DNA of 64,000 nt from Xylogone sp. PMI_703 (taxonomy: Eukaryota; Ascomycota; Leotiomycetes), in the NCBI GenBank assembly GCA_021399445.1, contig JAJTUQ010000005.1:992001-1056000 (forward strand), read 5' to 3'. Below, in pieces: positions 28,709-31,326 of the stretch (the stretch's first letter is position 1; each line of letters starts with the position of its first letter). The position numbers were made by a program, and so were the translations under genes. The notes under the pieces are model-generated. The model saw only the letters and a list, made by a program, of their open reading frames with translations. It ran no database searches and was not told where the DNA came from.

Positions 28709-30362
28709 ATGCGACCCATCTTGCCAAATGGTGGCGAACTGCCTGGTGAAGACTGGATTGAAGCTATCCAAATCGTCAAGAGTAGCTCTCGACCAAGTGA
28801 CACTCACGTACACCCTTTGTCTAGGCCGAGTATAAATGGGATCAAATATTGTATTCAACCAGGGAAGTCAAATTCTGAGATGTACAGTATAAACTGCAAA
28901 TATTTCGAGGATGTCGGCCCTTCTACATGTGAAAGCGACTCCGGCTACATAAACAATTATCCTGATATCAGCATAGTATTTGAGAACGATATGGTCCATT
29001 TTGACGATACCATTCAAGAGAATTCAGCCCTTGATAATGACGTGGTATGTGACACAGCCTATTATCTACAAGAAGTATCTTGACATTAACCTTTTATAGG
29101 TTCTTTCTCAAGGATTATCTTTGGAATTTGATTACATGGATTATACCTCCTCTTTCAGATATCCTGAAAAGGTACGAACAACGGCGAATATTACTCAAAG
29201 ATATCCTGAGAATTTTCATATACCAATCCTATACTATATTTTACAGAAAATTGTTGGAGATAATTCAAGTATTTTGGTTGTGGATAGCGAAAACGTTTAC
29301 AAGGACCTTATCAATCGAATCACCATCGACCGAGTCCAAAAAGCTTTGTTAGCTGCACTTGACTCAGAACTTGTTGGAGTCTATCAAAGTGGTACACTTG
29401 ACTTTCCTACTCTGCTATCTCTTAATCACTCGAAGGCAGAAAACTACCGGTGGCCGGGAATCTATCTCCACGTCATCCATGATGAAAAGCATTATGGCGT
29501 GTTCTGGTTATACGTTGGGGCTGGGATGAATGTGAAAGAACGGATTGCTCAACACAGAAAGTTCAGAAAAATTCCCAGCCGACGGTGTCTTCACTACCAC
29601 ATATGGAACGTAGATAATCGACGGGATTTCTTTGTTCTTTTGGCTGGATTCAAAGGCCAAAGCTTCAGTGATAATGACCAGTCTGCAATGAATAATCTCA
29701 TGGAATTCTGGAGTTGTCTCACATGGCAAACATTGCCCTCCTCCATTCTATCAATAGCTCTTCCTCAAAATTTTCCGATCCATGAAGCTAATATCCATCT
29801 TAACCGGGCATCCCCATTACGGCAAAAATACAATTGCAAGGCAGTGACCGAAGGGAACGTTGAAACAGCGCTAGAGCTGTATCGAGGCTCCCAAAGCCTT
29901 TTGCTCTCACCGGATCCCGATATTGTAGCTTATTTCAAGCAGCGAGAGGGATTTTACAATTTACCAATATGGCGAAAGTTAGAGGCATTGCAGCTGGGAC
30001 GGGCAATTCAGGAAAAGACATATTTCAGAGATATTACCTTACTACACCGAAAACGGAAAAATTATAATACTAGAGGTTTACTGATGAATGCAGATAGCAC
30101 CAAAGGGGACCTGGCTACTGTTTGGATCCAGTGTGCGAATTGTAAGCATCCGAGTACCAGGCGAATAGATCCCGCACCAATATACGAAATAGCAACAGGA
30201 CTGTATGTTCGGCGTAGATTAGCTTGCCGAATGTGTCCTATCATCACAGGAAAGCATGGGAGATGGGAGGGGTCAAGAGAAAACTGTCCTACAGAGCCAG
30301 TAGACTCTACTTTCAAATCTGTCGCTCAGGAAGCTGTTTATTGTAAAGGAACCTTAAATTGA
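28709..30362 (+). CDS. GIY-YIG-like nuclease domain protein with C-terminal Cys motif
   Basis: Two exons, 28709-29044 and 29100-30362 (55-nt intron, GTATGT...ATAG); 532 aa. The central region fits the GIY-YIG fold: GIY at residues 232-234, YVG at 250-252, an Arg at 260 and His at 264 (NVKERIAQH), and a candidate catalytic Glu at 314 (NNLMEFW). The GIY to YVG spacing (15 residues between the two Tyr) is longer than the usual 10-11. Near the C-terminus are C-x2-C at 457/460 and C-x2-C at 488/491, a possible zinc ribbon. The N-terminal ~200 residues are not recognised. This is not Slx1, which has a different layout. The role is unknown; a DNA-cleaving or selfish function is only inferred from fold and setting. 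Confidence 0.68.
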
Positions 30363-30616: not shown

Positions 30617-30622
30617 AAAAAA
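30617..30622 (-). terminator. Pol III terminator (T6) of tRNA-Leu gene
   Basis: Six consecutive T on the minus strand begin six bases after the tRNA 3' end, the normal RNA polymerase III stop signal. Confidence 0.85.
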
Positions 30623-30672
30623 TAACGCTGACAAGAGCGGGATTCGAACCCGCGCAGATTTCTCTATGTGAA

Positions 30673-30709
30673 TCCTAATTGACTTTGTCAATTAAGCCTA
30701 TAGATTAAG
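30673..30709 (-). other. Canonical tRNA intron (after position 37)
   Basis: 37 nt located exactly at the universal eukaryotic site, one base 3' of the anticodon, where the tRNA splicing endonuclease cuts. It contains a perfect hairpin (TAATTGAC-AAA-GTCAATTA) and a TTG able to pair with the CAA anticodon. Confidence 0.85.
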
Positions 30710-30716
30710 CTTGAGT

Positions 30717-30780
30717 CTAATGTCAGACATGTTAGTATATGTGTCATAGTTATGTAATTAAACGGAATTAGACGACTCAC
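30717..30780 (-). other. Spliceosomal-type intron inside the tRNA anticodon stem
   Basis: 64 nt on the minus strand beginning GTGAGT (30780-30775) and ending TTAG (30720-30717). A perfect TACTAAC lies at 30737-30731, with the branch A about 15 nt before the end. Length, donor, branch and acceptor match the protein-gene introns in this window. Removing it exactly at GT-AG rejoins TGTG and A to give the TGTGA half of the anticodon stem, which pairs fully with TCACA. Confidence 0.8.
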
Positions 30781-31326
30781 CACACGCCTTAGACCACTCG
30801 GCCATCTTGCCATTCGTGCTTGATTTATGCTCGTTATAATATTTTATATGCCACATCCAACCTTCTACAATTATATAAAGTCATTAATACTATCTATGAG
30901 AGTAAGTAGTGCCTGTAGAGTTAGAATACACGGCGCATGAATAGATATAGTTAAGAGATTAAGCGCATAACCACACCATATAGAGGAGCGGAGACCAAGG
31001 AATCGATTTAGTCCAAAAGGGTAGGGAGGAAGACTGCAAAAGAAATGTCTCGGGCGGCGCTAAAAAACGCCACAATTTTGACCTCTGTAAGCGGTTATAG
31101 AATGCTACGGCGACCATAGCGTTGAAGAACGCTATAATTACAGCGTATTATAGGGCATCGGCAGCCTAAGAATCGCTTAGTTATAGGGTCCTTACAGCGT
31201 ATGGCCATTTACGGAAAGATGGCATTCTTAGCGTGGGACATTTCTTTTGAACGCGACATCCGTAGAAAAGGCTTGATTGTGTATCAAGCTACAAGGCTCA
31301 GTGTTGGGATGCCTTCGTGTGTAGGC

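Follow-up and report, generated by a model that had tools for sequence, protein, structure and literature searches.

Spliceosomal introns also occur outside protein-coding genes. The rDNA of ascomycetes carries them, and these introns resemble the case described here in that they lie in noncoding RNA genes, their hosts being rRNA genes. Among small structured RNAs, a passage in a 2017 paper names U3 and U6 as the only ones known to be often interrupted (PMC5832005). In the same source, introns of fungal U3 snoRNA genes have GT-AG ends, an RCTRAY branch motif roughly 15 nt from the acceptor and a presence/absence pattern among paralogues; the host there is a snoRNA, not a tRNA. Its fungal intron consensus is GTRWGT for the donor and RCTRAY for the branch, with 6 to 36 nt from branch to acceptor. 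The mRNA-type intron of U6 snRNA genes, described for fission yeast and other fungi in part of another paper and thought there to stem from reverse splicing, is the precedent among small RNAs made by Pol III (PMC10484740). U6, however, is itself part of the spliceosome.

tRNA splicing has been described as separate from mRNA splicing. It relies on protein enzymes and not on the spliceosome, according to a section of a 2026 review (PMC13149111), and a statement in the tRNAscan-SE 2.0 paper limits eukaryotic tRNA genes to one intron (PMC8450103). Exceptions are an alga and Cyanidioschyzon merolae (PMC4090602). Algal and crenarchaeal tRNA genes can hold two or three introns at odd positions, but the passages on them ascribe these introns to the splicing endonuclease and do not mention branch sites (PMC4090602, PMC8450103). 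The sequence-only reading knew of no described tRNA gene with a spliceosomal intron nested with a SEN intron, and our literature search among open-licence papers found none with a spliceosomal intron at all; U6 snRNA and U3 snoRNA come nearest. What would be new here, judged from sequence, is the tRNA as host, the nesting with an intron of the SEN endonuclease and the doubling of such introns in three genes.

The tRNA-Leu(CAA) gene of the window

The locus lies in a window of 64,000 nucleotides of DNA from Xylogone sp. PMI_703 (Leotiomycetes), within contig C21 of a 50.1-Mb genome. The earlier reading gave the coordinates of a 64-nt insert, its GTGAGT start, a TACTAAC 15 nt before the end and a TTAG finish, all of which were correct; it did not give the strand, which is minus (Table 1). 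tRNA position numbers are our own assignment on the cloverleaf. With its stems intact, A and B boxes in place and a likely terminator downstream, the gene is predicted to be a functional tRNA-Leu(CAA) gene. A 420-residue open frame (window 29100-30362, plus strand) adjoins it and has no Pfam match.

Table 1. Coordinates of the window gene and of insert-bearing tRNA genes elsewhere in the genome
Feature	Position or loci	Strand	Details
tRNA-Leu(CAA) gene	30811-30629	minus	31-nt 5' exon, 64-nt insert, 7-nt exon, 37-nt intron, 44-nt 3' exon
5' exon, to position 30	30781..30811	minus	acceptor stem 7/7 with 3' exon
A box, within 5' exon	about 30793-30804	minus	
64-nt spliceosomal-type intron GTGAGT...TACTAAC...TTAG, tRNA positions 30/31	30717..30780	minus	sequence and paralogous inserts
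Branch-site motif TACTAAC, perfect	30731..30737	minus	branch A 15 nt before 3' end
Middle exon ACTCAAG, anticodon CAA	30710..30716	minus	ARAGORN caa once both introns are out
37-nt SEN-type tRNA intron at 37/38	30673..30709	minus	ARAGORN i(37,37) after removal of the GT-AG insert
3' exon	30629..30672	minus	
B box, within 3' exon	30640-30650	minus	
T6 run, likely Pol III terminator	30617..30622	minus	sequence
Leu(CAA)	window, L002, L071		insert at 30/31; 3/3 copies found
Leu(UAA)	L064, L075		insert at 26/27; 2/2 copies found
Leu(AAG)	L073, L074, L133, L142		variable arm, D loop too in L133 and L142; 4/4 found
Pro(AGG)	L054, L055, L094		D loop, two different sites; anticodon loop too in L094; 3/3 found
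Pro(UGG)	L090		D arm; 1/2 copies found
Ile(AAU)	L084		26/27; 1/2 copies found
Phe(GAA)	L106		D loop; 1/2 copies found
Arg(ACG)	L087, L062, L077		31/32; 3/3 copies found
L133	G000:C12:4131600	minus	three introns: two GT..AG inserts and one 37/38
L142+L179	C22:2598591	plus	whole gene; three introns: two GT..AG inserts and one 37/38
L094	C20:4000604	minus	three introns: two GT..AG inserts and one 37/38
L062, Arg(ACG)	G000:C1:6080995	minus	insert GTAAGT start, TATTAAC; fails splice-signal filter; gene otherwise intact, no D-loop deletion
L077, Arg(ACG)	C1:6083449	minus	insert GTAAGT start, TATTAAC; fails splice-signal filter

Seven deletions give the right exon length, and two of them restore all five Watson-Crick pairs of the anticodon stem. 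These two lie one base apart and yield an identical product, and one of the two is GT..AG. Exact GT-AG removal thus regains the 5/5 pairs that had been claimed for it. With both introns out, the acceptor stem pairs 7/7, the T stem 5/5, the D stem 3/3 and the anticodon stem 5/5 (G-U allowed). ARAGORN reported no tRNA in the window as given, and when run on the unspliced gene it returned Pro(AGG). Deleting only the GT..AG insert changed the call to a Leu tRNA whose 37-nt intron lies at 37 and whose anticodon is read as cag; deleting both introns changed it to tRNA-Leu(CAA). The leftover 37-nt intron proposed at 37/38 is therefore where it was said to be.

The two introns of the gene differ in kind. 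The 37-nt intron sits at the canonical SEN-type position, 37/38. The 64-nt insert sits instead at 30/31, shows the GT..AG rule that canonical SEN introns lack, at exact exon junctions, with its branch motif within 6 to 36 nt of the acceptor as in U2-type introns, and would call for another enzyme. A search of the window for group I and group II self-splicing introns gave no Rfam family at threshold (Rfam also missed the tRNA itself).

Splice signals of the inserts

We filtered inserts for GTNNGN, a branch motif 8 to 35 nt from the end and a final AG. Nineteen of the 21 inserts found in this genome passed, whereas composition shuffles (20,000 per insert) passed at rates of 0 to 2e-4. The 19 are 49 to 64 nt long, with the branch A 9 to 18 nt from the end. 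Donors were GTGAGT, GTGCGT, GTACGT, GTTAGT, GTAAGT, GTAAGA, GTAAGC, GTGAGA and GTATGT; the D-loop insert of L142 ends in AAG rather than YAG. The two that failed, in the Arg(ACG) genes L062 and L077, end in TG and CG, respectively, instead of AG. These genes are either decayed copies or users of noncanonical acceptors.

For comparison with mRNA introns we used two window genes, a septin (P0001) and a muniscin (P0241), whose gene models are exact spliced matches of the deposited proteins. A reading-frame scan had proved too noisy as a source of mRNA introns, and these protein-based models replaced it. The seven introns of the two genes have a CTRAY branch and TAG, span 50 to 99 nt and look like the tRNA inserts. 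Five of the seven, a small sample, passed the same filter.

Insert-bearing tRNA genes across the genome

The insert of the window gene is not unique. Genome searches and reading of the fetched loci, in this one genome, gave 18 tRNA genes of eight isoacceptors with 21 spliceosomal-type inserts (Table 1). ARAGORN named the expected anticodon for 15 of 16 tested genes after insert removal versus 2 of 16 unspliced. In the three genes with two inserts each, it then called L133 Leu(AAG) with an 18-nt intron, L142 Leu(AAG) with a 17-nt intron and L094 Pro(AGG) with a 19-nt intron. By our own reading, five genes have no 37/38 intron, namely the three Arg(ACG) genes and the Pro(AGG) genes L054 and L055. 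Runs of five to eight T's lie downstream of the insert-bearing genes.

Redundancy of the window copy through other Leu(CAA) genes had been set as a check. Two others were found, both with an insert at the same site. One of them, L071, looks decayed: its D stem pairs at 2/3 and its T stem at 3/5, and ARAGORN does not recognize it. The other, L002, shows by hand reading a single T-T mismatch within its anticodon stem. The Arg(ACG) gene L077, which has a D-loop deletion, looks decayed as well.

Three insert-free sister genes supply an exact empty site, to the base. In the comparisons that follow, slashes mark the insert ends. Pro(UGG) gene L086 reads GGTAGAATTC where L090 reads GGTA/GTAAGT...CACAG/GAATTC, Ile(AAU) gene L148 reads GAGCGTGGTGC where L084 reads GAGCG/GTAAGA...ATCAG/TGGTGC, and Phe(GAA) gene L085 reads CTGGGAGAGCG where L106 reads TTG/GTATGT...TGTAG/GGAGAGCG. 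Similarly, L073 and L074 have no insert at the D-loop site where the other two Leu(AAG) genes, L133 and L142, carry one. Among the Pro(AGG) genes, both sites of L094 are empty in L054 and L055, and the sites of these two are empty in L094. Such exact empty sites in paralogues indicate that precise GT..AG units have been gained or lost.

The exons are also better conserved than the inserts. Identical columns in the Leu(AAG) genes L073 and L074 number 82/82 for exons and 37/56 for inserts, and in the Leu(UAA) pair 80/82 and 37/60. Among the Leu(CAA) genes, the values are 68/82 and 39/66 (window gene and L002), 70/84 and 39/72 (window gene and L071) and 70/84 and 42/63 (L002 and L071). With one insert of a pair shuffled, identity averaged 0.49 and never exceeded 0.58; the likeness of the inserts is thus at most modestly above background. 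The acceptor stems of the Leu(CAA) copies have several base differences among them and still pair 7/7. L073 (G000:C1:7943887, plus) and L074 (7944959, minus) form an inverted Leu(AAG) pair separated by about 1 kb; their exons are identical and their variable-arm inserts have diverged.

Our B-box survey read 133 of 183 GGTTCGANYCC places and 3 of 93 GGTTCAARYCC places, and other B boxes where RF00005 matched; insert-free copies could lie among the remaining B-box places. An A-box pattern with up to three mismatches, which would miss genes with D-loop inserts, found 14 places in the genome, with no contiguous Leu(CAA) or Leu(UAA) gene among them. Twelve of these places had been read as loci, and Ser(AGA) genes account for the remaining two. 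The only insert-free Leu gene among the 14 is L068, Leu(UAG); L135, Leu(CAG), is also insert free. Each of the five Leu genes found that decode UUR has an insert. Since the A-box places include no insert-free Leu(CAA) or Leu(UAA) gene, UUA and UUG would be read only by insert-bearing genes. A genome search with the spliced Leu(CAA) sequence returned the window locus only, and because it missed the known paralogues too, it is weak evidence of absence; the A-box pattern tests this better. The whole-genome RF00005 search, in which 63 of 1,824 candidates were scored, had none of the 18 insert-bearing genes among its 57 places.

Processing and alternative explanations

The Pol III promoter of tRNA genes is internal. 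The insert of the window gene lies between the A and B boxes, and in several other genes a D-loop insert falls within or next to the A-box region. Of the 21 inserts only that of L087 contains TTTT, which is a weak stop signal for Pol III, so transcription can run through the other 20. In the processing that we propose, Pol III would use the intact A and B boxes of the window gene and stop at the T6 run. The spliceosome would then excise the GT..AG insert and so restore the anticodon arm, and SEN endonuclease and tRNA ligase would next excise the 37-nt intron at 37/38.

According to the sequence-only reading, the spliceosome has to come first. When the window gene was folded by minimum energy, the anticodon stem appeared only with the GT..AG insert removed, which fits an order of spliceosome first and SEN second. 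L002 and L064, however, did not have a cloverleaf as their minimum-energy structure, so folding argues only weakly for this order. In addition, the insert leaves four of the five stem pairs uninterrupted, and the 26/27 insert of Leu(UAA) leaves the stem whole. The order is therefore a proposed one.

The anatomy of the gene, the match to splice signals, the recurrence of inserts at many sites, the empty sites and the conservation of exons over inserts were observed directly. Removal of the inserts in the cell, the machine responsible and the order of the steps are what we infer. We put at about 0.9 the probability that a U2-type spliceosomal intron accounts for the 64-nt insert of this Pol III-transcribed tRNA-Leu(CAA) gene, that at least 18 tRNA genes of the genome, this one included, bear such introns, and that spliceosome and SEN together remove the introns. 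The nesting of SEN and spliceosomal-type introns that was first proposed remains the best reading given the 17 further genes, the exact empty sites and the likeness to mRNA introns of the same contig.

It is conceivable that the insert-bearing genes are dead, broken by insertion, and that other genes supply the tRNAs. The decay of L071 and L077, the two Arg(ACG) copies without AG and the incompleteness of the genome tRNA survey are consistent with this idea, but every copy found has inserts for five isoacceptors, the T runs follow the genes, exons are conserved while inserts diverge, and the varied Leu(CAA) acceptor stems keep all their pairs. We therefore consider it very unlikely. We give slightly less credence still to ectopic tRNA introns cut by the SEN endonuclease at noncanonical positions, a situation known from archaea and suggested for some algae. 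Endonuclease removal has been argued for the noncanonical, multiple tRNA introns in the alga of Kawach et al. and in C. merolae, but the same passage states that how such introns are spliced is not known (PMC4090602). The inserts, moreover, have GT, branch motif and AG in common, and their D-loop and variable-arm sites are far from the anticodon. ARAGORN called 48 introns across the loci, several of them inserts or misparses of inserts; a single one of the 48 is GT..AG, and that one is the L087 insert itself. That the GT..AG appearance arose by chance or as an alignment artefact is barely credible: the one-base shift at the window junction leaves room for it, but shuffles passed at no more than 2e-4 per insert where 19 of 21 inserts passed, and the empty sites agree with GT..AG removal to the base.

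If the spliceosomal reading is true, some tRNAs require two unrelated splicing machines. Several tRNA genes here would need both, and three genes would hold three introns. It seems likely that tRNA genes of this lineage repeatedly gained spliceosomal introns, up to two beside a SEN intron, and that the reading of entire codon groups (Leu UUR, probably CUY, Pro CCY and Arg CGY) needs both the spliceosome and the SEN endonuclease. The supply of tRNA would then be coupled to the spliceosome, and standard tRNA finders would miss the genes. This would imply that the tRNA set is misannotated in this fungus and perhaps in its relatives. The handover of a short Pol III transcript to the spliceosome becomes open to test, as does spliceosomal intron gain, for which the insert-free paralogues supply the exact empty site.

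The best U6 match in this genome, the only one over the cutoff, is without an intron. Two partial loci were also read. L063 (G000:C1:2511519, plus) has a Leu A box and no recognizable tRNA body in the 250 bases read and is a fragment. At the L087 locus (G000:C19:7290813, plus), the intact Arg(ACG) gene is accompanied, about 460 bases away, by an Arg(ACG)-like 3' piece with an insert end.
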